This document shows positions 2,307 through 59,966 of a DNA stretch of 64,000 bases, piece by piece; the first letter of the stretch is position 1, and the number at the start of each line of letters is the position of its first letter. Source of the stretch: a virus. The notes under the pieces were generated by a model, which was given only the letters and a program-made list of their open reading frames with translations, was not told the DNA's origin and searched no databases. The stretch is taken from positions 1 through 64,000 of the IMG/VR virus record IMGVR_UViG_3300010392_001176. The stretch is one strand, 5' to 3'. A program made the position numbers and the translations under genes.

Positions 2307-2484
2307 GTTTCTGTAATTTAGGGTTTGGATCATACTTCTCGCTAATACCACAACCAGGGCAACGGAATAGAACCGTGCCATTTTTGAATACGTTTTTCAG
2401 AACCGCTTCATTGCTGCATTCGGAGCAAATGATTTTGAAATTCTCCGGCGGCTTCTGTTTTGGTGGTGGTGTAATGAAGATCAT
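2290..2484 (-). CDS. small zinc-ribbon protein
   Basis: 64 residues with two metal-binding knuckles, CSEC (about 20-23) and CPGC (about 42-45), typical of a zinc ribbon. The N-terminus is Pro/Lys-rich (PPPKQKPP). The start overlaps the stop of the upstream gene (ATGA), so translation is coupled. Zinc ribbons in phage early genes often bind nucleic acid or take over host transcription or replication, but nothing more precise can be said. Confidence 0.65.
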   Translation of the reverse strand: MIFITPPPKQKPPENFKIICSECSNEAVLKNVFKNGTVLFRCPGCGISEKYDPNPKLQKQVGRV

Positions 2485-2987
2485 GCTGACTCCTTTGTTT
2501 GAAAGATTCTGGCTACCTCTGCCTTGAATTCCTTCATCGGCTTTTCGCTGTGCTGGCTGGCCATGCGTGCCATGTGATAGAGCTGGAATGCGTGGAGTGA
2601 TCCGATGCCAATAGCGTCTAGCTTGAAGAGAAACTGCGTGAAGTCAACCTTCCATCGCTTGTGCAGATCACGATCCTTACCTTCTTTCAGCTCAACGTAC
2701 ACAGCTTCATGCAAGGGCATGAAAGGCAGCCCGTTACCCATGCCAATAACCTGAAGGTAATCGCTTGTGGCCAATACTTCTGTGATGTAGCAGGCTTCAG
2801 CGGTAGTGAAGTAATCATTCAGCTCAGTCAGCATAGGATTCGACAGTAACATCAGCGCAGCCAAATCCTCTCGAATCTGCGTACCAATGGGCGTGCCATA
2901 GCGATCAAGCCAGCGAAGAAATACATCAGGCAGCCGCAATGAAGTCACCCTGTCTTTACTTTTCGCCGTTTCCATTCCCGTTGCCAT
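2481..2987 (-). CDS. hypothetical protein, N-terminal ribbon-helix-helix-like
   Basis: 168 residues. Residues about 11-40 (KDRVTSLRLP, then an amphipathic helix) resemble the strand-helix-helix start of ribbon-helix-helix DNA-binding proteins; the rest is helical and unassigned. GAAAGGAG lies nine bases before the ATG at 2987. The gene overlaps the 3' end of the upstream gene by 32 bases. Its KDRVT motif is encoded by the same 13-base DNA word (2945-2957) that recurs as KDRVN in two other early genes. Confidence 0.6.
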   Translation of the reverse strand: MATGMETAKSKDRVTSLRLPDVFLRWLDRYGTPIGTQIREDLAALMLLSNPMLTELNDYFTTAEACYITEVLATSDYLQVIGMGNGLPFMPLHEAVYVELKEGKDRDLHKRWKVDFTQFLFKLDAIGIGSLHAFQLYHMARMASQHSEKPMKEFKAEVARIFQTKESA

Positions 2988-3348
2988 TGCCGTTGTCTCC
3001 TTTCTTTGTGGGGGGGCGAAGAGATATGCCCGTTTCAGCTTCCAAGACCTTCGTTGCTATAAAGCGATGCTTGGGATCAGCCATGTCACCCTTCAGGGCT
3101 TCCAGGGCCATTTTCTCGCCTTTCTCGGTGATCTTGAAAGCTAACTCATCATCTTTGAAGGTAGGAAGCAGGAGCCCATCCAGGCAGCAATCCATCAGGT
3201 ATTGACTCATCCTGGTTTCTTCCGCCCATTCATAGATCACTTCCATTTCCTCATCGGTTCCGCCTGCATCTCCACGACCATAGAGAAACAAGCTAATCAC
3301 AGTTGATAAATCTTCTGTTGTTACCCATGCGGGTTTCCAATCACTCAT
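2956..3348 (-). CDS. hypothetical protein with Gly/Asn-repeat tail
   Basis: 130 residues, acidic and helical (a winged-helix-like pattern is possible at about 15-95, with ITEKGEKMALEAL resembling a wing plus helix). It ends in an alternating Gly-Asn tail (GDNGNGNGNGNGEK). The tail's reading frame overlaps the start of the next gene. Coupled to the upstream gene by an ATGA overlap. No family recognised. Confidence 0.6.
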   Translation of the reverse strand: MSDWKPAWVTTEDLSTVISLFLYGRGDAGGTDEEMEVIYEWAEETRMSQYLMDCCLDGLLLPTFKDDELAFKITEKGEKMALEALKGDMADPKHRFIATKVLEAETGISLRPPTKKGDNGNGNGNGNGEK

Positions 3349-3797
3349 TTTCGACCTCTCTTTCTAGCATGGCGCTTTGCTTTATCGCGCTCTCGCCCTT
3401 TGAGTTTTTTCCTCATTGACTTAACGCCCCTGAAGGTACGGCCAAGAGTTAAGGCTATATCTTTCACATGCTCATCTGACTCCAAGAGGTATGCCTTTTC
3501 CTCATCTGACCAGCGGCTACATTTCATAACCGCTTGCCCTACAGTCAGGGCTTGCATTCGGTGTACATACTCATCTCGCTTGTCTTTATCGTAATTAGGG
3601 TCTAACGTCCTGGCGATAGCTTGGCGCAGCCGCATTGCTCCTTTCCGTGCTTGAGCCAAGGGCTCTTTCTGACCCTGGTAAATTCTCCCTGTCAGCTTTG
3701 CGGATTCTAAGATGCTGGCCATAGCATGATCCAGGGCTTTGGCTTCTGGCAGCTTGAATACCATCCGCACACTTACCTCTTGCTGCTTGTCTCTCAT
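3345..3797 (-). CDS. basic protein with Myb/SANT-like helix-turn-helix
   Basis: 150 residues. Residues about 95-130 (WSDEEKAYLLES, then IALTLGRTFRGVKSMRKKL) match the three-helix Myb/SANT-like DNA-binding pattern, with the acidic W(S/T)xEE opening and a recognition helix. The C-terminus is very basic (KRHARKRGRK). This suggests a small transcription factor or nucleic-acid-binding protein. The start abuts the stop of the upstream zinc-ribbon gene and the stop overlaps the next start, so it belongs to one leftward operon. Confidence 0.65.
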   Translation of the reverse strand: MRDKQQEVSVRMVFKLPEAKALDHAMASILESAKLTGRIYQGQKEPLAQARKGAMRLRQAIARTLDPNYDKDKRDEYVHRMQALTVGQAVMKCSRWSDEEKAYLLESDEHVKDIALTLGRTFRGVKSMRKKLKGRERDKAKRHARKRGRK

Positions 3798-13818: not shown

Positions 13819-14270
13819 TGGGCGTAACTAACCCGAATTACCCGACGATGGAGATCGCCCTGGCTATGGTCAATGCGCCTGATACTGCAGATAACGAGCG
13901 CATGAAAATAGGCGATATTATTGCCATTCGCAAGCCAGGAACATTCATCGGCACAAAGGAAGGCAAGATATTTCTCTGGCTCCAGATTGATGGACTTGAA
14001 GAGAACGCATTCGCTGTTTTTACTCAGCAAGTCTTTGAGCCTACCGATCCTGCAACTGGCGAAAGATTTGACAAGCGAAGATACTGCGTTCCCCTTGGAC
14101 GCTTACAGGTTCTATATCCAGCCCTGAATCAATCCAGAGCCCGCGATGTCAATGATTTTTATCAACCATTCCTGCTCATTGATAGTGAAGATTTTGAAAT
14201 AGTTGCTGCAGATCCAGCATACGATATTAGCGGCCTAGTCTTTGATAAGGCCATAGGAGATTATCTCTAA
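13818..14270 (+). CDS. hypothetical virion or fibre-associated protein
   Basis: 150 residues, mixed alpha/beta, with no recognised motif. It overlaps the upstream and downstream genes by one base each, so the three genes 13297-25369 are tightly coupled. Its place directly before the giant modular protein suggests a baseplate, adaptor or chaperone function by context only. Confidence 0.6.
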   Translation: MGVTNPNYPTMEIALAMVNAPDTADNERMKIGDIIAIRKPGTFIGTKEGKIFLWLQIDGLEENAFAVFTQQVFEPTDPATGERFDKRRYCVPLGRLQVLYPALNQSRARDVNDFYQPFLLIDSEDFEIVAADPAYDISGLVFDKAIGDYL

Positions 14271-17200
14271 TGGCCACATCAAGACGCACGGCCACAAATG
14301 AGAATATAAGCACCTATGATAGTGGGGGCGGTCAAGACTACTCAGCCCTTGCTACCTGGGAAGCTGCTACAGATATAGATTTAGTCAGCGCAACTCAGTC
14401 TGAGGTCTTAGAGTGCTACGCTGGTTCTCACGATGATGAAATAGTAATTGATGGCGCGACTACGAATTCTTCGTATTTTAGGATAATTCGCCCTGCTTCC
14501 GGCGAAGGGCATGATGGCTATCCCCACCAGGACGGATCAGCGGCTTATTTTGTCACGACCACAAGCGACATAGATATGTTCGATGTGGTTGAAGCTAACT
14601 GCCAGATTCAAGACTTGATAATGAGTCTGGATCAAGATGGCGGCAGTATGTATTGCGCTGCCCTAACAGGTGACAACCAGCATTTAATCGGCTGTTTAGC
14701 TATCAATCCGATCAACATTGGCAGCGATTCTAAGGGTTTTAGAGAGAATGGTGGTAGTGGCGATACGATGTATTATATCAACTGTATCGCCATAGGCTGT
14801 GACGATGCTGCCTTTCAGTTCGATTCAGGAACAAGCTACGTCTATAACTGCCATGCCATTGATTCAGGTGAAGGATTCAATGAGAGTGGCGGCACAGTCA
14901 TTTGTAAGAATTGCCTGGGTAACGGTACTTTCGGATCGAGTGACTTTGATGGATCTTACGATGCTGCGAGTGAATATAACAGTTCCGGCGATGGCACGGC
15001 CCCAGGTACAAACAGCCGGATCAATCAAACCTTCGCCTTCTCGGACGCTGGCAACGATGATTTCCGGTTAGGCTACACCGATGGTGGGGCCAGGAATTTC
15101 GGTACGGATCTCAGCGCAGATGGCAATTTCGCTTTCGACGATGATATTGCCGATGGCGTGATGGGCGCGGGGAAAGCAGGGATCACGCGCCCGCAAGAGA
15201 CAGTATGGGATATAGGCTTTCACGAGCGCACGGAAAGTTCATCAAGCTCAAGTTCTTCATCCTGCTCAAGTAGCTTTTCATCCAGTTCCTTCTCATCTTG
15301 CTCATCCAGTTTTTCTAGCTCAAGTTCCTGCTCTAGCTCTTCTTTTTCATCATCATCGTCCAGCTTTTCCTCTTGTTCTTCTTCGAGTTCTTTTAGCTCA
15401 AGCTCTTCGAGCCTAGCTTCATTTTCTTCATCTTCATCCAGTTTTTCCAGTTCTTCTAGTTCCTACTCGCTGCCCTGTGTCAATGATTCAGACCATAAGC
15501 TCTTGCTCCCGATGGATGGCGCTGATGGACACACCTACTTTCAAGATGTGTCTTTAGGCGGCTTTCACGGTGCTGCAACGGTAGTAGGTAACGCAGAAGG
15601 TGATACTTCGGAGAAGAAATGGGGTACTGCTTCACTCTGGTTGCCTTCAACAAGTACCTCTAGCGCCGATGATTATCTCCAATTTGCCGATCATGCAGAT
15701 TGGGACGTTACTCAATATACTAATTTCACCATCCATGCTTGGATTAAATTAGTTAATTATTTTAATCGACAAGAGCCTATTGCTTCTCAGTACGAAGATA
15801 GTAGCAACGGATGGACAGTTAGACACGCTGGCGGTGCTTCTGATGGACTTTTCTTTTCACTCCGTTCTGGCGGCTCAAATATATTAAGTTTCGGTGCTGA
15901 TGGTGGGAGCATTACTGATGATAGTTGGCATCATGTGGCGCTGTGTAAAGTTGGCTCTGATTGGGGGCTCTATCTCGATGGTCAACAAACGTCTTATGGC
16001 TCTGGAAGTCCAACACAGACATTCGCTGCCCCGCTTAGTATAGGTGCATCGCCAACTGGCTTTACTAGCCCATATCAGTTAAATGGCTGGATTGACGAAT
16101 TTGATATTACACATGATAATTGCTTCGGAGCTGCGCCGAATAGCGGAGATACTGATACAATTCCAGTACCGCAAGCTCCATATCAGGTTTCTTACTCTTG
16201 CTCATCCTCATGCTCATCAAGTTCTTCCTTTAGTTCATCGAGTTTTTCATCAAGCTCAAGTTGCAGTAGCTCTTGCTCTTCGAGCTTTTCAAGTTCAAGT
16301 TCGTTCAGCTCATCGTCGTCTTGCAGTTCATCTTTTTCATCGAGTTCATCATGCTCAAGCAGCTCTTTCAGTTCGAGCTCGTGCAGCTCGTCGTTTTCAT
16401 CATCGTCTTGTTCTTCCTCTTACTCAAGTTCCAGCTCTTCGTCGAGCTTTTCTTCTTCTAGTTCAAGCTGTAGCTCATCGAGCTTTTCGTCCTCTTGTTC
16501 ATCGAGTTCTTCATTTTCTAGCTCATCATCTTCTTCGCCTTCATGCGTTCCACCTTCCTGGCGGTGGGCTGATGGTTCTCAGCTAATCGTCGGCACGATA
16601 AATACTGGCGTTTTCTGTGATACCCATGCCTGTGATCTTACTGAGTATGTAATCAATGAGATTTCAGGTGTTGGTATTCCAGCTTTCGATCAAAGATTCA
16701 CCTTTGAAAATGTACCGAAAGCAACTCTTGATGTATCCATTACGGGCTACTACAACGGCAATCCCGCTCATAACGTCAAAATAGCGATCTTTAATTACCA
16801 AACGCTGTTGTGGGATGATATGACAGGCGCAGCCCAGGACTTTCCATCACAAGCTACGCCCTCTAACTATGTATTTCCGCTCTCAGGTGCAGGAACACCG
16901 TCTGATTATGTGAGTGTTGGCAATCAGCTATCAATTAAGATCGACCATCGCTCTAACGGATCAGCCGGACACACATTTCACATGGATTGTGTGCATCTGA
17001 CCGATACAAGCTCTTCGAGTAGCAGTAGCTCCTTTTCGTCGAGCTCATCGAGCTTTTCATCAAGCTGCTCGTCCTCTTGCTCTTCAAGTTTTTCGAGTAG
17101 TTGCAGCTCATTTTCATCAAGCTCGTCGAGCTTTTCTTCTTCTAGCTCCTGCTCATCGTCTTTCTCTTCGAGCTGTTCATCAAGTTTTTCGTCGTCGTCG

Positions 17201-20200
17201 TCTTGTTCCTCTTCTTTTTCAAGCAGTTGCAGCTCTTCTTCTTCTAGTTTTTCGAGCAGCAGCAGCTCATACTCGTCGAGTTCATCATGTTCATCGAGTT
17301 CATTTTCATCATCATCATGTTCTTCGTCTTTTTCATCCTCATCCAGTTCCAGCTTCTCAAGTTCCTCATCTTCATTTTCCTCTTCTTCCTGTTCCTCTTC
17401 GTTTTCGAGCAGTTCATCTTCCTTTTCATCGAGTTCTTCAAGCTCGTCTTTTTCGAGTTCAAGTAGCTCTTTCTCATCTTCATCGAGCTCTTCTTGCAGC
17501 TCATCTTCGGCGGTATCATTTTCAAGCTCGTCCTCTTCGTCTTGTAGCTCATCATTCTCGTCGAGCTCATCGTCTTTTTCGAGCTCAAGCAGTTCCTTCT
17601 CGTCGAGCTGTAGCAGTTCCAGTTTTTCATCTTCATCTTCATCAAGTAGTTTTTCCAGCTCATCCTCTTGCTCATCGAGCTCTTTTTCTTCTTCAAGTTC
17701 TAGCTGTAGTTCATCGCTATCATTTTCGAGTTCTTCATCTTCGTCTTGTAGCTCGTCGAGTTTTTCATCCAGCTCATCGAGCTCTTTTAGCTCATCAAGC
17801 AGTAGTTTCTCCAGCTCATCCTGTTCCAGCTCTTTTTCTTCTTCGAGTTCATCTTTCTCATCGAGCTCTAGTTGTTCTTCATCTTTTTCATCTTGCAGTT
17901 CATCATCGGCAGTATCGTTCTCATCCTCATGCTCTTCCTCTTGCAGCTCGTCTTTCTCTTCCAGCTCATCATCGTTTTCGAGTTGCAGCAGCTCGTTTTC
18001 ATCGTCCAGCTCTTTTTCGAGTTCTTCATCCTGCTCAAGTTCTTTCTCATCGTCTTGTAGCAGCAGCTTTTCTTCATCCTCATCGTCTTTTTCTTCCAGT
18101 TCGAGCTCATTTTCATCTTCGTGCTCAAGCTCGTCTTTCAGCAGCTCATCAAGCTGCAGTAGCTCTTTCTCAAGTTCAAGCTCTTCTTTCTCATCCTCTT
18201 GCTCAAGTTGCTCATCGAGTTTCAGCAGCTCGTCGAGCTCATTTTCATCTAGCTCGTCCAGCTCATCTTTTTCGAGTTCGAGTTCATCATCTTCTTTCTC
18301 TTCTAGTTGCAGCTCGTCGTCCAGCTTTTCAAGTAGCTCAAGTAGTTCTTTTTCCAGCAGTTCTTTCTCATCGAGCTCGTTTTCATCTTCAAGCTCTTCA
18401 TTTAGCTCATCGAGCTCAAGTAGCTCTTTTTCTTCATCTTCTTCTTGTTCGAGTTCTTTCAGCTCGTCGTCCTTCTCGTCCAGCTCATCCTCATTTAGCA
18501 GCTCAAGCTGTTCTAGCTCGTTCTCGTCCTCTTGCTCTTCGAGCTTTTCATCTTCATCTTCGAGCTCTTCATTCAGCTCAAGTAGCTCTTTCTCATCTTC
18601 GAGTTCTTCTTTCAGCTCATCCTGTTCAAGCAGTTCTTTCTCATCCTCATCTTTTAGCTCATCTTCCAGCAGTTTCTCTTCCAGTTGTTCATCGAGCTCT
18701 TCATCACTCTGTCTTAGCGTTTCTTCATCTTCAAGCTGCTCATCTTGCGATTCGGTTTTCTCATCCAGCTCTTGTAGCTCATCCTCTTCAAGTTCGCCTT
18801 CGTGTACTACTGAAAGTGCTTACGGCCCCAATCTGTTCACTACGACTTGGTATGATTACGGCAGGGTGACGGTCAATGAGAACAGCATAGAGCAAGTCCA
18901 TACTGATGCTAGAAGATATGCCGGATTTGAATCACGCAAATTCGTTGCTCTATTCAGGCCAGGGGATCAGGATTCACAAGGGATCGAACAGCGATTTGTA
19001 ATTGGAAATCCAGCAGCTCCGGCTGTAATAGAACAATATCAATACTCTTTTTGGGTATATCCAGTTAATCGCAATAAGATCAGGACTAGACAGCGTGATG
19101 ATGAAGGTACAGAGATCACGCGCAACTATACTGGACTTATTCCGAATGCCTGGAATCAGATCAGCAGCCTTGTTAATATCCAGACAAATGTTAATGCGAA
19201 ATTCGCATGGCATTCAGGAGCGCAAGAATCCGGTACTTGGTACATTGATGAAGCCAGCTTACGCAAAGTTTGGTGTATTGGCTCATCTTGCTCTAGTTCC
19301 TGTGACTCAGCCTTTTCATCTTCGTCTTGTTCTTCGAGTGAATCTTCATTCTCAAGCTCTTGCAGCTCATGGTCGAGCAGTTGTTCCTCATCCTTCTCCA
19401 GCTCAAGCTCCTGTTCTTCTTCATTTTCATCTAGCTCTTCATTTAGTTCTTCGTCTAGCTCTTTCTCATCATCTTCCTGCAGCAGCTCTTTCTCATCATC
19501 GAGTTCTTCTTTTTCCAGCTCATGCAGCAGCTCTTCGTCTTGCGATTCGGCCTTTAGCTCAAGCTGCTCCAGTTCTTGTTTCTCAAGCTCATGCAGCAGC
19601 TCTTCTTCTTTTAGCAGCTCTTCATCTTGCTTCAGCTCATCGTGTTCGAGTTCTTCATCCTGTAACTCGGCTTTCTCTTCTTCTTGTTCCTCTAGCTGCT
19701 CATCTTCAAGCTGTTCATCTTCATCTTCGAGTGAGAGCTTCCAGGTATTGCAAGGCCAGTATTTCTATCCCAATAATGACAAGGGCGGCTGGACTGTTAC
19801 TCCTGTGGGATCTGGAACGACTATCGCTAGTCGAGTGGACAACGGCATAAATGGACCTGGACGACTTAATCTTGGTGGTGGGCCGGATGATACTAATGGA
19901 TTCCAAGGAAGTAATGATGCTTTCATTCAATTTAGACTTACAAATCCAGTTTTTCAGGGAGAAGCAATAGAAGTTCGGGCAACTATAAGGGGATTTGCTT
20001 TCTCAGCACCACCTGGACAGGTTGAAGTAGAATTCCTTAGCGATTCCTCTACTTCACATGGAACACGCACGATCAGCACTTTTACTGGTGTGCCTGCCAA
20101 CTACACGGTAGGATGGAGTCTTAATAAGACAGCGGCAGAGCTTACAGATGCACAATTAATAGTTACTTGCCAAGATGATTTCTGGAATGATCGAGTAACT

Positions 20201-23200
20201 GAGGTTGAGCTTCAAGTCATTATTGAAGGCTCATCTTCTAGTTCATCCTCTTGTAGCTCATCTTGTGACTCAGCATTCTCATCGTCCAGCTCTTCATCTT
20301 CGCTGAGTTCGGTGTCGGTAAGCAGCTCTTCTAGCTCCTGCGATTCGGCATTTTCATCTTCGTCTAGTTCATCATCGCAATCCTCTATTTCTTTCTCAGA
20401 TTCTTCTTCCTGCTCATCTAGCTCCTGCAGCTCTTCAAGCTCCTGCAATTCTGCCTTCTCATCTTCATCCAGCAGTTCTTGTTTCTCAAGTTCTTGTAGC
20501 TCAAGCTGCAGTAGTTCTTCATTCAGTTCATCTTGTTCTTCAAGCTCTTGTGACTCGGCATTCTCATCCTCATGCTCTTCGTCCTGCAGTAGTTCATTTA
20601 GCTGTAGTTCTTCTAGTTGCTCAAGCTGCTTTAGCTCTAGTTCCTCTTCGTCTTGCAGCAGTTCATTCTCTTCATCTTCAAGCTCATCCTGCGATTCCGC
20701 TTTCTCATCTTCATGTTCGAGTTCAAGTTCCAGCTTCTCATCGAGCTGTTCATCTTCATTCTCAAGCTCTAGTCCCTCAATATCATTCTCAAGCTGTAGC
20801 TCTTGCAGCTCATGTGATTCGGCCTTTAGCTCATCCAGTTCTTGCTCATCCAGTTTCTCAAGTAGCTGTAGCTCGTCATTCAGTTCAAGCTCTTTTAGTT
20901 CAAGCTCATTCTCTTCAAGCTCATCGAGCTTTAGCAGTTCGTCGAGTTGCTTTAGCTCATCCTCTTCCTTCTCAAGCTCTAGCTCTTCGTTCTCGTCGAG
21001 TTCATCCTGCTCCAGCTCTTTTAGCTCATGCAGCTCTTCCTTCTCGTCGAGTTCGTCTTGCTCAAGCTCTTTTAGTTCTTGCAGCAGCTCATTCTCATCG
21101 AGCTCCAGTTCATCGAGCCAGAGTTCCAGCAGCAGCTTTTCATCCTCAAGCAGTTCTTTCTCCAGCTCATCGTCCTCTTCTTCATGTTCGAGTTCGAGTA
21201 GCTTCAGCTCATCTAGTTCTTCTTTTTCCAGTAGCTCGTCGTCGTCGTTCTCTTCATCTTCGAGCAGCTTTTCTTCATCCAGTTCTTCTTTTTCAAGCAG
21301 CTCATCATGCTCAAGCAGTTCAAGCTCAAGCTCGTTCTCATCGAGCAGTTCTTCCTTTTCGTCGTCGTCGTTCTCTTCATCTTCGAGTTCATCTTTCTCA
21401 AGCTCATCCAGCTTCTCAAGCAGCTCATCTTGCGACACGCTTTGGGAACAGCATTTCTCCAATGATTCAACTGGCTGGCAATGCTACTTCATGTGCCAAT
21501 GGAGTGGATCTGCGTGGCAACCGAATACCGTGAACATGGGAATCGAAGTTCATTCCTCTGCTACTTGGCAAGTTGGCTACAGGCCGACCAAGGCCAGAGT
21601 AACGATTGCCAATATCACAGACACGCCCGTAAGAATTAGTATGTCGGATGCGATGGGATTCCCGCTTGGAGCTACAGTATCAGTCTTTACGCCTGGGACT
21701 TACGAGATCCCCCTTGTTTATTCTAGCGGAACCGATATTGAAAAATGCGATGAGATAAGTTCATCTACTGGCTTTGATCTGACAAATATCGAATTCTTGG
21801 TCTGCTCTTCATCATCAAGTAGCTGTAGCTCATCAAGTTCCTGCGATTCTGCCTTTAGCTCTTCCTCATCTTCGAGCTGCAGCAGTTCTTTCTCAAGCTC
21901 TTCGTTCTCAAGCTGTAGCTCAAGCTCATGCTCAAGCTCTTTCTCCAGCAGCTCAAGCTGTTCTTCCAGTTTAAGTTCATCAAGTTCCGGCTCTGCAAAT
22001 TATGGTTGGTTCTCATACTTAGACGACGATCATTGGGAGAATGGTGGTGGTATTTTTGCCTGGGATGGCGATTCTTGGGATAGTGGCTCTAGCTCAAATG
22101 GCACACTCCTAGTAAAGTCAGGCTCGACTTGGGCGCAAGGTCTTGTGCCAACTGCTTTCCGCGTGACTTTTAGCGGGCCAGCCGACATTAGTATGGAAGT
22201 AAAAGATGCTTCAAATGATGATTGGTGGTTCGATGATACTGATGATCTTGTTTCTGGACAAGAGCTTGCGCTTACCGATCCTGGCGAAGATATAGGTCGT
22301 ATTTGGTTCCACCGTTTTCTCGGTACTGCGATTGAAATTACCAATATCGAATTCTTCTTGCCCGACCCTGAATCTTCGTCGAGTAGTAGTTCTTGCTCCA
22401 GCTCAAGCTCTTTCTCAAGCTCAAGCTCCAGTTCTTTCTCAAGCAGCTCTTCATCCTTCTCAAGCTCCAGCTCAGAATCATCTTCAAGCAGCTCCTTCTC
22501 AAGCTCATCCAGTTTCTCGTCCTGTAGTTCTTCAAGCTCAAGCTCTTTCAGCTCATCTTCAAGTTCCAGTTCTTTCTCCAGCTCAAGCTCATCGCAATCC
22601 AGTTCCAGCTCAAGCTCCAGCGGAAGTTATGAATTGCAAGGTGAATTCATCGTACCGGATGAAGATGTAGCTTCGTCGGTTGCTACTTTTGGTAGCGGTA
22701 CTGCAAAATGGGATCGGCTGAATGATGGCATTATTAGCGGGACACCGGATGATACGAATGGAATCCTTGGTCTTGACGGTGATTTCCTAACGAGTGGTTT
22801 TATCAATCCTTCTTTTGCTGGAACCTGTTTAGAGATCAAGGTTCATGTACGCGGTAAATCCGATGGCGGCGTACTATCCGATGTTTGGTTCTCGCTATAT
22901 TCTGATGGAGCAAGTAGTGATGGCACGAATACGACCAGCTTTCCTACTGGCTCTTTTCAGACTCAGACCTTTACATACAGCATACAAAAGACAGCCGCGC
23001 AGCTTACAAATCTGAGGGTGCTTACGCAGTTTAAGGCTCCAAGTTTTGATGATCGAGTTTCAGAGATCGAAGTTGAGATTGTAAGGACTTCATCTTCGAG
23101 TTCATCAAGTAGCTGTAGCTCTTGCGATTCTGCTTTCTCTTCATCTTCGAGTTTCAGTAGCAGTTCCTTCTCAAGCAGCTCACACTCATCAAGCTCATCT

Positions 23201-25369
23201 TGCCTTGCTGGACAATGGGTACGAACCTTCGGCCTTTCTTATTGGAATTGTTTAGCGAATTGTAATTGGGATGGTGACTCGTACAATACCGCAGGGCCAG
23301 GGCTGGCGATCCAGACGACTAATAACGGATGGTATACGGATTTTCGACCAACCAAATGGAGAATCACGGTCACAGCTCCAGATACTTACACCCTGAGAGA
23401 TACTGCAGGAAATGTAATCGCAAGCGGGGCAGTTTCGGCGGGTGCTAATGAATTCGACATAGATTGGAGTAACAATCAAGATATAGGGCCAAGCGTTTCG
23501 CCTCAATTTTGGGGTAGAATCTCTAACGGTGCTTCCAGCGACATAACCAACATCGAATGGTTTGTCTGTGCTTCGAGTTCTTCATCATATTCCAGTTCAT
23601 GCTCAAGCTCTTCGCAAAGTTTTTCGAGTTCTTCTTGCTCTTCGAGTTTATTCGGTTCCAGCTTTCTTGTTCCAAATGCTGACGATGCACCTGACGATTG
23701 GGAATTAGATGGCGGAAGTTCTAAATGGGATTCGGTTAATAACGGCGTTGATACACCCGACGACGATGAAATTATCTATGCGTATGAGGACGACACGCTT
23801 GAGCAACAGTTTGATCTCACGAATCCAGTTTTCGCACCCACGGCTGTTTCGGTACGGATGCGGGCGTATATAAGAGGACGGATATGGAATGGTACTGCTA
23901 ACTCCGTCGATGTAGAGTTCTATGATGGAGCAAGCCTGATAGGATCGACTACCACGCCTAATTTTCCTGATGCGGGTGCATCTCAGGGCGTTTGGGGGAA
24001 TGAGTACACGCCTTGGGTCAACACGGTCAAGACAGAAGCAGAGTTGGCCGATCTGAAAATCTTAGTCAGGTCGAATGCTCCCTCTGATGAAGTCGATCTT
24101 TCAGAGATCGAAGTTGAGATAGAGTACGGCCCACCTAGTTCAAGCTCCAGCTCTTGCTCCAGCTCGTTCTCAAGCCCTTCGAGTTCTTCATCTTCACAGA
24201 GCTTTGAAGCATTGCAAAGCCGATTCTCAGTTCCCAATGGCGATCCTAGCCAATCAATTTCAACTTATGGATCTGGTAGTGGACGTTGGGGCCGCACAAA
24301 TGATGGCATCTTCGGCGGTACGCCTGATGATACGAATGGAATTTACGGCCTTGAAGATGATTTTTATCTGGCAAACATGACTAACCTGAATTATGGGGGA
24401 ACGTCTTTAGAGATCAAAGTTCATGTTCGAGCGCAAAACTTTAGTGCAGGATTCGATACTGACTTCGATGTGCTGCTTTATACAGACGGCTCTACTCTTG
24501 ATAAGCAAGAGAATTTCGGGACTTCTGATAGTTGGCAGAATTTCACAATGTCAACAACTATCCAAAAGACGGCAGCACAGCTTAATGGAATGAGAGTCAG
24601 GGTTATATGTAAAGATCCAAGTTTCGATACGCGAATTTCAGAAATAGAAGTCGAAGTTGTTCTGCCTTCATCTTCAAGCTCATCTTCCTCTTTCTCTAGT
24701 TGTTCTTCAAGCAGTAGCTCTTGTGATTCTGCCTTCTCATCTTCGTCTAGTTCATCCTCTTTCAGCTCCAGCTCTTCGAGTTCCTGTGACTCGGCATTCT
24801 CATCTTCATGTAGCTCATCGTCTTTCAGCTCAAGCTCTAGCTCATCGCAAAGTTTCTCGACGTTTCAGACGCGAATATGGATGGTCCCAACAATACCGGA
24901 TGATGAGAGTGGTACTTTTACTTTCGGCGTTGGAACCGCCCCTGGCAATATCAATGATGGCATTTTTGGCCCTGGCGCTTCACCGGATGATAGCAATGGA
25001 ATAGGCGGTAGTCAGGGTGATTATTATGAAGCTGATCTATGGCCTAATGTTCCTTCGAGTATGCCCCAAACTATAAAAATTAAATCTCATTGGCGACTCA
25101 AGGCCGATTCTGGTAGTGGCGATGTGGACGTACAGTTGCGTACCTATGGTTCACCCATAGATCCAGGCGATACCAATATCAATCCTACTACGAGTTGGGC
25201 TACTTATACTGTAGAGCATGATGCACAGTTGACTTGGATAGAGGTTCAAAATCTGGAAATGTTCATTGCATTTGAGGATGCAGCTAACGCTGATCGACTT
25301 TCCGAAATGGAAGTTGAGCTTATTTTTGCTCCATCTTCGAGTTCGTCCAGTTCTTCAACTTCGACTTAG
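14270..25369 (+). CDS. giant serine-rich modular fibre/adhesin-like protein (3699 aa)
   Basis: Order of parts (approximate residues): 1-321 beta-helix-like domain (DYSALATWEAATDID start); Ser linker; 402-641 LamG/concanavalin-like domain; Ser linker; 759-914 beta-sandwich; Ser linker of about 595 residues; 1510-1672 carbohydrate-binding-like domain; then five copies of one ~155-residue domain (A: 1823, 2785, 3129, 3312 and 3528 onward) and three of another ~125-residue domain (B: 2389, 2575 and 2979 onward), separated by Ser linkers. Linkers are Ser runs broken by Phe, Cys and occasional Tyr, with CDSAF/CNSAF recurring about 14 times. Domain A ends in a shared (L/V)SEIEVE-type strand; B ends in a TNIEFF-type strand. 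Most likely a receptor-binding or surface-display fibre. All linkers are in frame with no stop. Confidence 0.85.
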   Translation: MATSRRTATNENISTYDSGGGQDYSALATWEAATDIDLVSATQSEVLECYAGSHDDEIVIDGATTNSSYFRIIRPASGEGHDGYPHQDGSAAYFVTTTSDIDMFDVVEANCQIQDLIMSLDQDGGSMYCAALTGDNQHLIGCLAINPINIGSDSKGFRENGGSGDTMYYINCIAIGCDDAAFQFDSGTSYVYNCHAIDSGEGFNESGGTVICKNCLGNGTFGSSDFDGSYDAASEYNSSGDGTAPGTNSRINQTFAFSDAGNDDFRLGYTDGGARNFGTDLSADGNFAFDDDIADGVMGAGKAGITRPQETVWDIGFHERTESSSSSSSSSCSSSFSSSSFSSCSSSFSSSSSCSSSSFSSSSSSFSSCSSSSSFSSSSSSLASFSSSSSSFSSSSSSYSLPCVNDSDHKLLLPMDGADGHTYFQDVSLGGFHGAATVVGNAEGDTSEKKWGTASLWLPSTSTSSADDYLQFADHADWDVTQYTNFTIHAWIKLVNYFNRQEPIASQYEDSSNGWTVRHAGGASDGLFFSLRSGGSNILSFGADGGSITDDSWHHVALCKVGSDWGLYLDGQQTSYGSGSPTQTFAAPLSIGASPTGFTSPYQLNGWIDEFDITHDNCFGAAPNSGDTDTIPVPQAPYQVSYSCSSSCSSSSSFSSSSFSSSSSCSSSCSSSFSSSSSFSSSSSCSSSFSSSSSCSSSSFSSSSCSSSFSSSSCSSSYSSSSSSSSFSSSSSSCSSSSFSSSCSSSSSFSSSSSSSPSCVPPSWRWADGSQLIVGTINTGVFCDTHACDLTEYVINEISGVGIPAFDQRFTFENVPKATLDVSITGYYNGNPAHNVKIAIFNYQTLLWDDMTGAAQDFPSQATPSNYVFPLSGAGTPSDYVSVGNQLSIKIDHRSNGSAGHTFHMDCVHLTDTSSSSSSSSFSSSSSSFSSSCSSSCSSSFSSSCSSFSSSSSSFSSSSSCSSSFSSSCSSSFSSSSSCSSSFSSSCSSSSSSFSSSSSSYSSSSSCSSSSFSSSSCSSSFSSSSSSSFSSSSSSFSSSSCSSSFSSSSSSFSSSSSSSSFSSSSSSFSSSSSSSCSSSSAVSFSSSSSSSCSSSFSSSSSSFSSSSSSFSSSCSSSSFSSSSSSSSFSSSSSCSSSSFSSSSSSCSSSLSFSSSSSSSCSSSSFSSSSSSSFSSSSSSFSSSSCSSSFSSSSSSFSSSSSCSSSFSSCSSSSAVSFSSSCSSSCSSSFSSSSSSFSSCSSSFSSSSSFSSSSSCSSSFSSSCSSSFSSSSSSFSSSSSSFSSSCSSSSFSSSSSCSSSFSSSSSSFSSSCSSCSSSFSSSSSSFSSSSSSSSFSSSSSSSSFSSSCSSSSSFSSSSSSSFSSSSFSSSSFSSSSSSFSSSSSSSSFSSSSSCSSSFSSSSFSSSSSSFSSSSCSSSFSSSCSSSFSSSSSSSSFSSSSSFSSSSSSFSSSCSSSSFSSSSFSSSSSSFSSSCSSSSSSLCLSVSSSSSCSSCDSVFSSSSCSSSSSSSPSCTTESAYGPNLFTTTWYDYGRVTVNENSIEQVHTDARRYAGFESRKFVALFRPGDQDSQGIEQRFVIGNPAAPAVIEQYQYSFWVYPVNRNKIRTRQRDDEGTEITRNYTGLIPNAWNQISSLVNIQTNVNAKFAWHSGAQESGTWYIDEASLRKVWCIGSSCSSSCDSAFSSSSCSSSESSFSSSCSSWSSSCSSSFSSSSSCSSSFSSSSSFSSSSSSFSSSSCSSSFSSSSSSFSSSCSSSSSCDSAFSSSCSSSCFSSSCSSSSSFSSSSSCFSSSCSSSSSCNSAFSSSCSSSCSSSSCSSSSSSESFQVLQGQYFYPNNDKGGWTVTPVGSGTTIASRVDNGINGPGRLNLGGGPDDTNGFQGSNDAFIQFRLTNPVFQGEAIEVRATIRGFAFSAPPGQVEVEFLSDSSTSHGTRTISTFTGVPANYTVGWSLNKTAAELTDAQLIVTCQDDFWNDRVTEVELQVIIEGSSSSSSSCSSSCDSAFSSSSSSSSLSSVSVSSSSSSCDSAFSSSSSSSSQSSISFSDSSSCSSSSCSSSSSCNSAFSSSSSSSCFSSSCSSSCSSSSFSSSCSSSSCDSAFSSSCSSSCSSSFSCSSSSCSSCFSSSSSSSCSSSFSSSSSSSCDSAFSSSCSSSSSSFSSSCSSSFSSSSPSISFSSCSSCSSCDSAFSSSSSCSSSFSSSCSSSFSSSSFSSSSFSSSSSSFSSSSSCFSSSSSFSSSSSSFSSSSSCSSSFSSCSSSFSSSSSCSSSFSSCSSSFSSSSSSSSQSSSSSFSSSSSSFSSSSSSSSCSSSSSFSSSSSSFSSSSSSSFSSSSSSFSSSSSSFSSSSSCSSSSSSSSFSSSSSSFSSSSFSSSSSSSFSSSSSFSSSSSCDTLWEQHFSNDSTGWQCYFMCQWSGSAWQPNTVNMGIEVHSSATWQVGYRPTKARVTIANITDTPVRISMSDAMGFPLGATVSVFTPGTYEIPLVYSSGTDIEKCDEISSSTGFDLTNIEFLVCSSSSSSCSSSSSCDSAFSSSSSSSCSSSFSSSSFSSCSSSSCSSSFSSSSSCSSSLSSSSSGSANYGWFSYLDDDHWENGGGIFAWDGDSWDSGSSSNGTLLVKSGSTWAQGLVPTAFRVTFSGPADISMEVKDASNDDWWFDDTDDLVSGQELALTDPGEDIGRIWFHRFLGTAIEITNIEFFLPDPESSSSSSSCSSSSSFSSSSSSSFSSSSSSFSSSSSESSSSSSFSSSSSFSSCSSSSSSSFSSSSSSSSFSSSSSSQSSSSSSSSGSYELQGEFIVPDEDVASSVATFGSGTAKWDRLNDGIISGTPDDTNGILGLDGDFLTSGFINPSFAGTCLEIKVHVRGKSDGGVLSDVWFSLYSDGASSDGTNTTSFPTGSFQTQTFTYSIQKTAAQLTNLRVLTQFKAPSFDDRVSEIEVEIVRTSSSSSSSSCSSCDSAFSSSSSFSSSSFSSSSHSSSSSCLAGQWVRTFGLSYWNCLANCNWDGDSYNTAGPGLAIQTTNNGWYTDFRPTKWRITVTAPDTYTLRDTAGNVIASGAVSAGANEFDIDWSNNQDIGPSVSPQFWGRISNGASSDITNIEWFVCASSSSSYSSSCSSSSQSFSSSSCSSSLFGSSFLVPNADDAPDDWELDGGSSKWDSVNNGVDTPDDDEIIYAYEDDTLEQQFDLTNPVFAPTAVSVRMRAYIRGRIWNGTANSVDVEFYDGASLIGSTTTPNFPDAGASQGVWGNEYTPWVNTVKTEAELADLKILVRSNAPSDEVDLSEIEVEIEYGPPSSSSSSCSSSFSSPSSSSSSQSFEALQSRFSVPNGDPSQSISTYGSGSGRWGRTNDGIFGGTPDDTNGIYGLEDDFYLANMTNLNYGGTSLEIKVHVRAQNFSAGFDTDFDVLLYTDGSTLDKQENFGTSDSWQNFTMSTTIQKTAAQLNGMRVRVICKDPSFDTRISEIEVEVVLPSSSSSSSSFSSCSSSSSSCDSAFSSSSSSSSFSSSSSSSCDSAFSSSCSSSSFSSSSSSSQSFSTFQTRIWMVPTIPDDESGTFTFGVGTAPGNINDGIFGPGASPDDSNGIGGSQGDYYEADLWPNVPSSMPQTIKIKSHWRLKADSGSGDVDVQLRTYGSPIDPGDTNINPTTSWATYTVEHDAQLTWIEVQNLEMFIAFEDAANADRLSEMEVELIFAPSSSSSSSSTST

Positions 25370-56234: not shown

Positions 56235-56720
56235 CTAAAAAGCGGCGATGTCAACTACAACCATTTTGAGATCCCGTATCCTTGCTGCTTCCAGATAGAC
56301 ATCTCGGCCAGATTTTTTGGTCGCTTGCTTGTCCAGGGTTTCCGCTCTGATGATGTTGTGCTTGTTCAATAGATCCACCATCCCGATCTCGAAATACAAT
56401 TCATCATCGGTGAGATCCGTGAACTTTGGTTCCCCCTGGTAAAGCAAGCCGAATTCCAGGGGAATATCCCTGTGTGTGTCTGCAACAAAAATTTGTACCA
56501 CTCTTCTCATAAACTCTCCTTTCGATGAGCTCATGCTGGAGCTCGTTGAATGTGAAGCAGAGCTCCCACCAATGTCTTGCTGTACCATGAAGGCATGAGT
56601 GGGGGTTTCTTTCTGGTCAAACTCCTGTCTTAATATTGCCCGCTCTGTCAGGGCGGCCTTGATCTTCGGGTCTAGCGATGTTACATAACTCGTCTTGGTA
56701 ATCTCTGGCATTTCTCTCAT
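56235..56720 (-). CDS. hypothetical protein with internal translation start
   Basis: 161 residues from the ATG at 56720 (AAAAGGAG). A Ser-rich linker (SSASHSTSSSMSSSKG) joins an N-terminal part to a C-terminal domain (FVADTHRDIPLEFGLLYQGE...). Within the linker, AAAGGAGAGTTTATG gives a second, nearly ideal start at 56510 in the same frame. The gene could therefore make both the full protein and a 91-residue C-terminal form. No family recognised. Confidence 0.65.
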   Translation of the reverse strand: MREMPEITKTSYVTSLDPKIKAALTERAILRQEFDQKETPTHAFMVQQDIGGSSASHSTSSSMSSSKGEFMRRVVQIFVADTHRDIPLEFGLLYQGEPKFTDLTDDELYFEIGMVDLLNKHNIIRAETLDKQATKKSGRDVYLEAARIRDLKMVVVDIAAF

Positions 56721-56736
56721 GGGCTCTCCTTTTTTA

Positions 56737-56755
56737 GTGGGCCAGGAATGGGCCA
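56737..56755. repeat. 19-bp direct repeat GTGGGCCAGGAATGGGCCA (copy 1)
   Basis: Identical to 56969-56987. Lies directly upstream of the ribosome-binding site for the 56235-56720 gene. Each copy contains TGGGCCA twice. Confidence 0.8.
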
Positions 56756-56848
56756 GATATGTGCGCCAGCGTGCGTTAGGGTGCTCTAGCTGACTCTTCA
56801 TAACCTTTCGGGAATTGGGGCAAAGGCCCATGTGGTGTACATTTACCC

Positions 56849-56877
56849 TTTACAAAAGGGTCTGCAGAGATTATGGT
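56849..56877 (+). promoter_or_regulatory. possible rightward promoter reading into the array
   Basis: TTTACA (56849-56854), 17 bases, TATGGT (56872-56877). The -35 lies inside an ACCCTTTACAAAAGGGT inverted repeat that could be an operator. Transcription would enter the pentamer array after about 100 bases. Confidence 0.4.
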
Positions 56878-56896
56878 AAATCGTCGCGTGCTGCTC

Positions 56897-56917
56897 TTCG
56901 AATCCGACACTCTCCCC
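56897..56917 (+). other. tRNA 3'-end-like segment, possible att core
   Basis: TTCGAATCCGACACTCTCCCC resembles a tRNA T-loop, T-stem and acceptor strand, without the matching 5' half. Phage attP sites often hold just such a fragment. It lies about 1.9 kb from the integrase gene, farther than usual. Confidence 0.3.
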
Positions 56918-56932
56918 ACTCTCTTTCGGGCT

Positions 56933-56942
56933 AGTATAGCAG
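56933..56942 (-). promoter_or_regulatory. leftward extended -10 promoter
   Basis: On the leftward strand TGCTATACT, an extended -10 (TGnTATACT), with no good -35. It could drive 56720-55874. Confidence 0.4.
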
Positions 56943-56968
56943 ATTTAGGGGATTTGGGTTATCTCGGT

Positions 56969-56987
56969 GTGGGCCAGGAATGGGCCA
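56969..56987. repeat. 19-bp direct repeat GTGGGCCAGGAATGGGCCA (copy 2)
   Basis: Copy 2 of the repeat at 56737-56755. It lies four bases before the pentamer array (56992-57560) begins. Confidence 0.8.
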
Positions 56988-56991
56988 CATA

Positions 56992-57560
56992 ATTCATCGC
57001 AATCCATTTCAGAACAAAACATGACAATACTCGGCGGCAAATCAAGGCATATCCCGCCCGTCCAGAACGGCTCTCGTCGCCAAAACAAAACAGTACAGGG
57101 CATTACTCGACGACACAACAAACCAACCCGCCCCGCATCATTTCACTACGCAGCATAACATTACTCGTCGTCATGCCATCACATAGCATTTCGGTACAGA
57201 TCACATCTCGACGGCACTACACTCCGCACCAGCACATCACTCTTCTCGTCGCCACAACACTTCATCGCAGTTCTCGAAGTCAAAACGAAACGGCCCACCA
57301 CACCCCACTCCGCGAAGGCAACTCACCCCGATCCGTAACATCACACCTCACCTCATTCCGCGAAGTCAGCTCATCACGCGACACCTCTACGCGGCACACA
57401 CCACTTCTCGACGGCAGGGCAACCCACCACACACCATATCATCCCACCACTCGAAGGCAAAACGTTCCACCACGCGGCACGGCAAATCTCGAAGTCAGGA
57501 CGCTTCACAACTATCCACGGCATGTCTCGTCGCCAGCTCCGAACAGCTCACGGCACTCCA
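56992..57560 (-). repeat. pentamer/octamer array, non-coding, unknown function
   Basis: 569 bases in strict 5-base register. On the rightward strand there are 80 pentamers of form NNNCR (position 4 is C in all 80; position 5 is A in 59, G in 15, C or T in 3 each) broken by 13 segments of the form NNNC(T/G)CGNNGNCA. On the leftward strand this is 93 NGNNN pentamers with 13 octamers TGNCNNCG. Between successive 13-mers there are 3 to 9 pentamers, so distances between octamers are always 3 modulo 5 (28, 33, 38, 43, 48, 58). There is no long open reading frame in keeping with the pattern, no exact long repeat and no CRISPR-like repeat. It begins 4 bases after the stop of the 57565-58188 gene. Confidence 0.9.
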
Positions 57561-57564
57561 TTTC

Positions 57565-58188
57565 TCATTTCTCAGAAATCTTGAAGGTGTATCTACCTTC
57601 TCCCATACCCCTTTCGCCGCCGTAACCGTGCAATCCGCCATACTCGAAAATGTTTGTAACTTTCTTGATTTTGACCTCTGAATCTTCAAGGATTTTTAGC
57701 GTGAAGATAATCTCAGGCTGGAGAAGAAACTGGATATTTTTTAAGGCACTCCTTGGGCCTTGCCTGCTCATAACATGAACGGGCTGGTCGAAACTGCCGT
57801 CAGGTTCTTGGACGATCTCACCATTCTTGTAAACATGGATTTTATAATCTTCGATGTAAACTTTGTTGGCTACCTTGACTCGGAAGTTTTTGATCTTGAC
57901 CACATCTTTGATCTGATTGGCACAGTCTTTCAGGTGGGCCTTGATAGTACCGCCCCTTAGAAAAATTCCATCATCATCCTGCTGAAAGCCAAGCGTGGTT
58001 TTCTCCATGCTTTCATCTATGGTTTCTCCCACTTCTTCGACCAAATCATCAATGCTCTTGTCAGCACCTTCCGGCTTAGTTTTTGGCATCCGTGCTTCAA
58101 GCCAGGACCGGATAAGCTCTTTGCTTTGCGGGACTGATCCGCACAGCTTGTCAAGAAATTGCATCTTTACGGTGTATTCTTTCCACAT
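57565..58188 (-). CDS. RAMP/Cas7-like protein next to the pentamer array
   Basis: 207 residues from the ATG at 58188 (AAAGGAG, seven-base spacing). After an N-terminal helical region, residues about 80-100 (FLRGGTIKAHLKDCANQIKD) and a C-terminal block (VMSRQGPRSALK, IIFTLKILED, then YGGLHGYGGERGMGEGRY) resemble RAMP-superfamily proteins: an RRM-like beta pattern and a Gly-rich loop near the end, as in Cas7-like and phage RAMP-like proteins. Such folds bind RNA in a repeated register. The stop is followed four bases later by the array, which would be the 3' part of its transcript. The match is from motif shape, not a database search. Confidence 0.6.
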   Translation of the reverse strand: MWKEYTVKMQFLDKLCGSVPQSKELIRSWLEARMPKTKPEGADKSIDDLVEEVGETIDESMEKTTLGFQQDDDGIFLRGGTIKAHLKDCANQIKDVVKIKNFRVKVANKVYIEDYKIHVYKNGEIVQEPDGSFDQPVHVMSRQGPRSALKNIQFLLQPEIIFTLKILEDSEVKIKKVTNIFEYGGLHGYGGERGMGEGRYTFKISEK

Positions 58189-58283
58189 ACCATCTCTCCT
58201 TTAGGGGTAGCCTGGGGCCGTGGTCTGCCACACCACCACGCGCACTAAGTTTGTTGAGATACCGCTTCTCATATATTAAAGCC

Positions 58284-58676
58284 TTATTCGGCCCCAAGCT
58301 CATCCTCTATCCAAGTACCTACTTTGTCCTTGACTATGTAGGCTGTTCTCACACTATCATCATCAAAGTGCTTTGTGCTGGCTTCGATGAATTTACATCG
58401 CCTGCCCGCACTCCTGAATCTATGTTTGGTATTAGGTAAAATTCGTATGTGATCCCCTTCCTTGAAATACTGCGAGACAAAAATACCGTTTTCCTTTTCG
58501 ATGTCTAGCTCCAGTATTCCCTCTAAAATAAGAAAGGTTTCATCCTTGATCCGGTGATAATGAAACCTTCCTTTACTTGACCATATTTGATCTTCACAAA
58601 CGAGAACCTTCAAACAGTAGAGCTCATTGTTTTCAAGTATGAGCTCGTGGCCCCAATCTTTTGGTACAATTCTCAT
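58284..58676 (-). CDS. cupin-domain protein
   Basis: 130 residues. Cupin motif 1 (FHYHRIKDETFLILEGILELDIE, with His/His/Glu ligands) and motif 2 (GDHIRILPNTKHRF). Resembles mannose-6-phosphate isomerase-type or sugar-binding cupins, but the exact substrate is not seen. Overlaps the preceding coiled-coil gene by four bases. It may modify a sugar for the same cassette that decorates the fibre. Confidence 0.75.
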   Translation of the reverse strand: MRIVPKDWGHELILENNELYCLKVLVCEDQIWSSKGRFHYHRIKDETFLILEGILELDIEKENGIFVSQYFKEGDHIRILPNTKHRFRSAGRRCKFIEASTKHFDDDSVRTAYIVKDKVGTWIEDELGAE

Positions 58677-58885
58677 CGCGGGTAAGCCTGCTCATTCTCT
58701 CGTGCTTCTCTCTCTTTTTTAAGTTGCTTTTGCAGGCGCTTATTTTCCGCTCTGAGCCGCTTAATACCTTCATGGATGCCCATGATCGCATCACAGGTTT
58801 TCTTGCTTATACGGAGCCTGTGCGCGTCAGGACTACTACATTTCTGGACTAGCTTCTCCCACCAATATAGATCGGACTCTCTCAC
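58673..58885 (-). CDS. small coiled-coil protein
   Basis: 70 residues. A helical start, then a clear heptad coiled coil (KRLRAENKRLQKQLKKEREAREN). Starts inside the 3' end of the integrase gene (50-base overlap) and overlaps the cupin start by four bases. No family recognised. Confidence 0.6.
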   Translation of the reverse strand: MRESDLYWWEKLVQKCSSPDAHRLRISKKTCDAIMGIHEGIKRLRAENKRLQKQLKKEREARENEQAYPR

Positions 58886-59966
58886 GCTGCGCCTGCTTCT
58901 GATGCCTATTCTTGACTAGAGATTGAGCCATACTTTCCAAATCTATATTTACATGCCCGATGTACTTTTCTGTAGTAGCTAGATGCTTATGCCGCAAGAA
59001 TCTCTGAATAGCCTTGGCCGCGTGTCCATCCAAGGCTAACTTCGTGGCCACATGCCGCCTTAGAGAATGGTAGCCCAAAGGCGGGTCTATTCCTGCTTTC
59101 TTAGAGAGCTGGTATATGAATTTATCACGCTTGACAAATTGTTCGCCGTAAGCGTTTCCGCGTCCACCACCATTGCCGCCAGTATGTGACAGGGAGTAGA
59201 AAACATAGGGTTTGTCCAGGGGCCGATTTGTTTTCCACCACACAAGCCAATTGTGCAGATCATCATTCATTGGTAGCCATTGGTATTCCATTCCTTTGCC
59301 GCCAGTTTTCATGGTTCCCAAGCGGTAAAGTCTTTGGTCCAGCCGAATGTCACGCTTCCAGGTCCAGCGATAAATCTCAGAGCGTCTTGCCGCTGTTCCC
59401 AGGTAGGCTTCTAGGATCGCTCGATCCTGACCTTTGGCTACCAACAGTAACCGATCAACTTCTTCTTTGGTGGGCGGTACTTGCTCTACAGTATTGTGTC
59501 CGAAAATTACACAGTCAACAAACGGGTTGCCTTCGAGTTTTCGGACCTTGTTCACATATTTATTAGAAAATGTGTTGAGGTGCGATCTCTCCTTATTCGC
59601 TCGATACTTGCTCTGTTCCTCTGATCTTTCTAAAAAGTATTGTTGTGTTAAGAAAGTATCAAGCTGTGACCACATAGGATTTGCCAATCCCTTTTCATGG
59701 TCAAGCCATTGCAAGAATCTCGCTATTGATCTGCGAATATCTAAATAATGAACCTTGCTGGATGCTGCCTTAACAATGTCTAGGTACTCGTCTGATAGGA
59801 TCTCTAAGGCCATGTCTTGTGGCCCCTTCCCGTTCAGCCTTTCCTTTAGACGCTTTTCCCAAGTGTCGGCATCTCTTTGTAGGGTGAATTTTTTTCGTCG
59901 CTTTCCCGATGGGAAGCTCGGATGCCTTACTTGGCCCATGTAACCATCTGGTATTTTGTAGGCCAT
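58836..59966 (-). CDS. int: tyrosine recombinase / phage integrase
   Basis: 376 residues. N-terminal SAM-like core-binding region (about 60-150) and a catalytic domain with Arg in AARRSEI (194/195), Lys 220 in TMKTGG, H300-S-L-R303 in GYHSLRRHVAT, His 326/328 in RHKHLATTEKYIG and the nucleophile Tyr 335. Inserts and excises the phage genome at an att site. AAAGGGGG seven bases before the ATG at 59966. Its 5' end overlaps the upstream helix-turn-helix gene by about 197 bases in another frame. Confidence 0.92.
   Translation of the reverse strand: MAYKIPDGYMGQVRHPSFPSGKRRKKFTLQRDADTWEKRLKERLNGKGPQDMALEILSDEYLDIVKAASSKVHYLDIRRSIARFLQWLDHEKGLANPMWSQLDTFLTQQYFLERSEEQSKYRANKERSHLNTFSNKYVNKVRKLEGNPFVDCVIFGHNTVEQVPPTKEEVDRLLLVAKGQDRAILEAYLGTAARRSEIYRWTWKRDIRLDQRLYRLGTMKTGGKGMEYQWLPMNDDLHNWLVWWKTNRPLDKPYVFYSLSHTGGNGGGRGNAYGEQFVKRDKFIYQLSKKAGIDPPLGYHSLRRHVATKLALDGHAAKAIQRFLRHKHLATTEKYIGHVNIDLESMAQSLVKNRHQKQAQRERVRSILVGEASPEM

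Follow-up and report, generated by a model that had tools for sequence, protein, structure and literature searches.

What is a stretch of viral DNA in which one base recurs without exception at every fifth position, and what would read it? The question is raised by a window of 64,000 nucleotides (the whole stretch that was analysed) from an IMG/VR record of 65,814 bases in which integrase and RecT genes are present. The original prediction, made from the letters alone, had proposed a protein or RNA machine that would read the strand five bases at a time and use octamers as marks, and this idea is now supported by an adjacent gene for a Cas7/Csm3-like RAMP and by matches of the variable bases to genes of other phages. 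The feature is very likely the guide array of a phage-borne RNA-guided system of the VIPR type (Viral Interference Programmable Repeat), which combines a phage-borne RAMP protein, Vipr, with a vrRNA (bioRxiv 2026.04.26.720920, PMC13142463).

Layout of the array

The array and the gene adjoining it lie on the minus strand, as follows.

56992..57565, minus strand: pentamer guide array of 14 units, each AGNNN (YGNNN)n plus an 8-base mark
57359..57368, minus strand: one example of the 13 marks, reading TGACTTCGCG; the family consensus is TGNCGYCGAG
57565..58188, minus strand: vipr-like RAMP gene (gene A, 207 aa), directly upstream of the array and on the same strand

The minus strand follows the layout AGNNN (YGNNN)n TGNCN-NCG, with 107 consecutive units in a strict 5-base register that is broken only by thirteen 8-base marks, the last of the 14 units having no mark. 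The invariant base is a G at pentamer position 2 (a C on the plus strand), found in 93 of 93 pentamers counted, so that the invariance first described for 80 of 80 C residues stands and only the number was an undercount. Position 1 is T in 58 pentamers, C in 17, A in 15 and G in 3. The three N positions had been taken to vary freely; they do vary, but they are not equivalent, as the N that precedes the next YG shows a preference for G (34/93), and strict agreement with targets is confined to the other two. On the plus strand the marks appear as 13 segments C(T/G)CGNNGNCA, at positions 57030, 57073, 57106, 57164, 57207, 57245, 57273, 57311, 57359, 57407, 57450, 57488 and 57526, and the twelve distances between them (43, 33, 58, 43, 38, 28, 38, 48, 48, 43, 38 and 38) all equal 3 modulo 5, exactly as had been claimed.

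This register is far above chance expectation, in agreement with the initial view that it could not be accidental. On the minus strand the chain score of the array is 165.9. Dinucleotide shuffling of the array region gave no more than 20.1 in 500 trials, and shuffling of the window as a whole no more than 13.3 in 30; the opposite strand scores 8.8, and 10.0, reached outside the array on the minus strand, is the highest value anywhere else in the window. The array had also been judged to be neither a CRISPR nor a coding sequence, and both judgements hold. It contains degenerate pentamers and no identical repeats around unique contiguous spacers, and tandem-array detection reported no array there. 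A plus-strand ORF (57173-57625) that spans the array was considered as a real coding sequence and rejected as an accidental product of the register. Scanning the whole window for Rfam families and for tRNAs gave nothing, and neither a sigma-70-like minus-strand promoter nor a terminator was found within 56700-58450.

Two other features of the window deserve mention. The sequence GTGGGCCAGGAATGGGCCA is repeated at 56738-56758 and 56969-56989, flanking a sequence that resembles a tRNA 3' end (TTCGAATCCGACACTCTCCCCA, approximately 56890-56915), and together these probably represent an attP core with integrase arm sites. Additionally, positions 14270-25369 are occupied by a single ORF of 3,699 codons, within which numerous short repeats occur.

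The gene adjoining the array

The product of gene A is a small RAMP of predicted Csm3/Cas7 fold. Its AlphaFold model (pLDDT 88) matched type VII Cas7 and Csm3 (Foldseek E value 2e-7; Z 13 over about 164 residues), and a G-rich loop, HGYGGERGMGEGRY, is located in its C-terminal part. PADLOC gave weak matches to Csm4, Cas6 and Cas5, the best of them (Csm4) with an E value of 9e-4; Pfam and PHROGs assigned it to no credible family, and no credible match to a Nop domain was obtained with Pfam. For comparison, four GGY/NN arrays and the gene of an already characterised Vipr were recovered from phage SUSP1. By hhalign, the gene A profile and that of the SUSP1 Vipr family align co-linearly over 129 columns (P 5.6e-5, probability 66%; 0.17 in the reversed control), a putative link that is modest, yet consistent with the fold and with the plan of the locus. 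The protein of the window has no homologue in INPHARED by tblastn; with the gene A protein of locus L032 as the query, tblastn retrieved one distant phage gene, and none was found in plasmids.

In 8 of the 17 loci found by pattern (L025, L032, L042, L062, L089, L115, L118 and L007) a second small gene (gene B, 83-134 aa) separates the vipr-like gene from the array; it encodes a candidate accessory protein, which has no Pfam match and for which the structure model is helical and of low confidence.

Distribution of the array family

The original prediction had suggested searching viral metagenomes for the pattern and comparing related arrays. A three-mark pattern run over IMG/VR returned 120 stretches, of which approximately 16 are full arrays on different contigs, and in these relatives the frame and the marks are kept while the N positions vary. 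A homologue of gene A is present at 15 of the 17 array loci found by pattern, always in the same orientation and with the array directly beyond its 3' end. When the search was made with the gene A profile, 53 viral loci and two loci in bacterial metagenome-assembled genomes (MAGs) were obtained, 55 in total, and 52 of them carry an array with a score of at least 37 just downstream, on the strand of the gene. In one further locus (L138) the array lies upstream (score 79.9), bringing the relatives with an adjoining YG-NN-n array to 53 of 55; the exceptions are L131, which is weak (19.1), and L145, with a score not above background (14.6), and the opposite-strand controls did not exceed 15.2. In the gene-strand consensus from 3,385 pentamers at 42 loci, Y occupies the first position in 74% and G the second in 92%, followed by two Ns and, in 46%, a final G, and most guides comprise 5-9 pentamers between marks.

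Several loci show particular features. L149, L165 and L175 carry an additional array upstream of the vipr-like gene besides the downstream one. In a scan of 84,980 species genomes, gene A was found in only two, both metagenome bins and both with an array: a Phycisphaerales MAG (L125) and an Elusimicrobia MAG (L126). Near-duplicate guides occur inside the L142 and L093 arrays (for instance, L142 units ending TGGCC CGGAA TGAGG TGAGT), which suggests array growth through duplication. Finally, in the Microcystis phage Mae-JY09 (L182, PP395641.1), positions 2477-3740 contain a distant homologue of gene A followed by a 5-periodic stretch with a different, CC-rich motif (approximately nnCCn), which carries no annotation other than that of a hypothetical gene.

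The reading rule derived from sequence matches

Judging from matches to other sequences, the gene-strand pentamer is organised as Y-G-N-N-n, in which the two Ns are read and the target advances three bases per pentamer, so that the skipped third target base is the codon wobble position in coding targets. When 475 decoded units were compared with 1.5 Mb of sequence, a single score above 9 was obtained, an 11/11 match of an L149 unit under the Y-G-N-N-n reading with a skip of one, and the controls (reversed guides, shuffled guides, skips of 0 and 2) gave at most 8. Readings with the Ns at positions 1-2 or 3-4, or with a skip of 0 or 2, were discarded, as they gave no signal over the controls; the few scores of at least 8 under the positions 1-2 reading appeared in real and shuffled guides alike, because the fixed G favours codons starting with G. 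Dinucleotide composition compared with codon positions was uninformative, and a stop-codon depletion test was mixed, with antisense stops, though not sense stops, below all shuffles.

The third N agrees with the wobble base of the target above shuffled third letters in four guides (p 0.03, 0.10, 0.06 and 0.02), and a hand count over four guide alignments shows it coding for the residue of the target at 19 out of 22 two-fold sites. Since the targets are homologues and not proven true targets, it is only suggestive that this base may be informative about the target residue. A more speculative idea, which at present seems doubtful, is a triplet code in which all three Ns would be copies of three adjacent bases of the target (in coding targets, a codon or its complement). 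A guide would then be a contiguous piece of a rival gene with Y-G after every third base, and the third base would be tolerated or drifting. Such a code, if true, would be unlike the published two-base-plus-skip code and would give a hint as to how guides are made. As for the limits of a guide, neighbouring L157 units have separate targets and the L149 match spans its entire unit, including the dinucleotide inside the mark, which supports the assignment of one mark-to-mark stretch to one putative guide.

Targets and sparing of the phage's own genes

The strings of N had been proposed for comparison with rival phages, and once decoded they match rival vipr, RecT and integrase genes. The L149 unit, CA.GG.TA.GC.GG.GA.CG.AG.GA.GG.GA, agrees in 11/11 dinucleotides with the G-loop HGYAGERSDGE of other phages' vipr genes, and the vipr gene of L149 itself, which uses AGA and TCC codons, agrees in 9/11. 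A degenerate pattern made from two similar L157 guides matched exactly 6 IMG/VR contigs, in all of which the match is in frame at MQFKDDRINRA of a RecT-like gene, with 10/11 to guide 2; Pfam recognised RecT in L222 and gave no match for L220. The next guide of the L157 array did not contribute to that pattern and agrees in 9/10 with a later part of the same RecT-like gene, and L157's own homologue begins MKRKDERVNTA and scores 7/11 and 6/11 with the two guides.

The elements of the window that bear on its own targets are the following.

57361..57408, minus strand: guide 5, AA.GT.TG.CG.AG.TC.TG.AG(.AC), antisense to (V)LHDLRHTF of tyrosine-recombinase box II
58836..59966, minus strand: the phage's own tyrosine integrase, with box II YHSLRRHVAT and at most 4/9 to guide 5
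57108..57165, minus strand: guide 11, which with 11 dinucleotides is the longest guide of the window, without a confident target
57313..57360, minus strand: guide 6, with 25 background-like matches and no coherent target

Guide 5 has 78 exact 8-dinucleotide matches in IMG/VR, 53 of them in codon frame (ORFs of at least 100 aa) and 43 of these 53 reading LH(D/E)LRHTF. The 53 in-frame target proteins form 46 clusters at 90% identity, and Pfam found Phage_integrase in the seven targets tested (7/7). It is probable, with good though not complete confidence, that the predicted aim of guide 5 is integrase box II; as this box is among the commonest phage motifs, the match names the gene and not a particular rival. 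For guide 11, nine stretches match a chosen set of 8 dinucleotides and the best extension, 9/11 in L191, is not significant, and a search for guides 10 and 14 in 44 records (43 with a guide 5 match, plus L191) yielded nothing but one match with two mismatches. An arbitrary control pattern, equal to no guide, gave 23 matches, among them 8 ORFs that are related to one another, so a small cluster of related matches is no evidence on its own. In three cases the phage's own copies are spared, differing from the guides at non-wobble bases.

Proposed mechanism and alternatives

That the gene A protein reads the RNA is inferred from its modelled fold and by analogy with VIPR as described in the preprint. 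The guide RNA would be transcribed from the minus strand as a continuation of the vipr-like gene, and cleavage at the TGNCGYCGAG marks, or close to them, might divide it into guides some 5-11 pentamers long; the cutting is an inference, and the boundaries have the support of the target matches. One RAMP per pentamer, polymerising on the RNA, would hold the fixed Y-G and expose the bases that follow, as the Cas7 fold and the VIPR preprint would imply. The exposed dinucleotides would pair with DNA at three bases per pentamer and leave the third target base free, where the spacing derives from the observed matches and DNA binding is presumed. Guides would in this manner strike conserved spots in rival integrase, RecT and vipr genes, and silencing is the most likely effect, also by inference.

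The alternative that survives best, although improbable, accepts that the guides match rivals and proposes that the system acts on RNA, binding or cleaving mRNA in the manner of type III and VII RAMPs. The closest folds indeed belong to RNA-targeting type VII and III Cas7/Csm3 proteins, and antisense guides such as guide 5 of the window would pair with mRNA. However, the L149 and L157 guides have the same sense as their target mRNA and cannot pair with it, which favours DNA over RNA, and VIPR is described as binding dsDNA (bioRxiv 2026.04.26.720920). Very little remains of the proposal that the array is a series of protein-binding sites in dsDNA (for example for the nearby integrase, chromatin or packaging) and no guide store: the array does lie between the attP-like tRNA 3' end and the integrase gene, with a 5-base spacing close to half a helical turn, but relatives retain it together with the RAMP gene and its variable bases spell genes of rivals, which a structural site would not need. 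Least credible of all is a decoy or regulatory non-coding RNA with unselected Ns that would act as an anti-CRISPR RNA by titrating a CRISPR or RAMP complex of the host, since the N strings hold specific targets while sparing the phage's own genes and the array is accompanied by a RAMP gene of its own, even if the adjacent protein is RAMP-like and CRISPR-mimicking RNAs (Racrs) are encoded by phages.

Comparison with known systems

The guide array of a VIPR-type system, as the feature is interpreted here, can be compared with three kinds of known system. TIGR-Tas systems resemble it in having phage-encoded guide arrays that are not CRISPR arrays; their Tas proteins contain a Nop-like domain and their repeat units are longer, whereas the protein of the window is a RAMP without a credible Nop-domain match in Pfam and the unit has 5 bases. 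The Cas7 proteins of type III and VII CRISPR systems (Csm3, Cmr4, type VII Cas7) share the RAMP fold, the G-rich loop and, presumably, the use of one subunit per RNA step of fixed length, but the step has 6 bases in those systems and 5 here, where there are no CRISPR repeats or spacers. Pfam and PHROGs gave no cas match in the 8 neighbouring ORFs that were scanned, smaller ORFs being left out.

The closest likeness is to VIPR. Its guide RNAs consist of YNNGG pentamers, of which NN pairs with DNA while one base is skipped (PMC13142463). Both systems have a small phage-borne RAMP gene, of a single-RRM class of about 20 kDa in VIPR and of 207 aa in the window, next to tandem pentamers in which fixed bases alternate with a hypervariable dinucleotide. 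They also share a one-base target skip on the codon wobble (by sequence, 11/11 for L149, 10/11 and 9/10 for L157 and 8/8 for guide 5), targets in competing phages, including other VIPRs, with use of both strands, a lack of visible adaptation genes, and carriage by phages or proviruses (here, 53 viral relatives and 2 bacterial MAGs). On the other hand, the window has Y-G as its fixed motif, together with a third position biased to G, where VIPR has GGY, and the guides are short (about 5-11 pentamers), abutting and split only by the 8-base mark, compared with 9-16 pentamers. The structured 3' tail of vrRNA is not seen here, where there is no room between guides and only TGNCGYCGAG is conserved, and no vap-like accessory gene is seen beside the window array.

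Non-contiguous RNA-guided DNA recognition has been proposed to be older than CRISPR (PMC13142463). The present analysis amounts to an independent, sequence-only confirmation of this very recently described form of recognition, in a branch whose fixed motif differs, and it also contributes dozens of long natural arrays, a rule for guide boundaries and concrete targets (the integrase box, RecT and rival vipr genes) together with self-sparing. Guides that are short and separated by marks are, moreover, attractive for the study of guide cutting and acquisition. The kind of system is already published, and this branch may be one of the seven types that the preprint mentions with 'a related consensus' and 'staggered arrays' (PMC13142463); compared with its main text, the new elements are the YG motif, the short guides delimited by marks and a variable third base that, on suggestive evidence, tends to encode the target residue.
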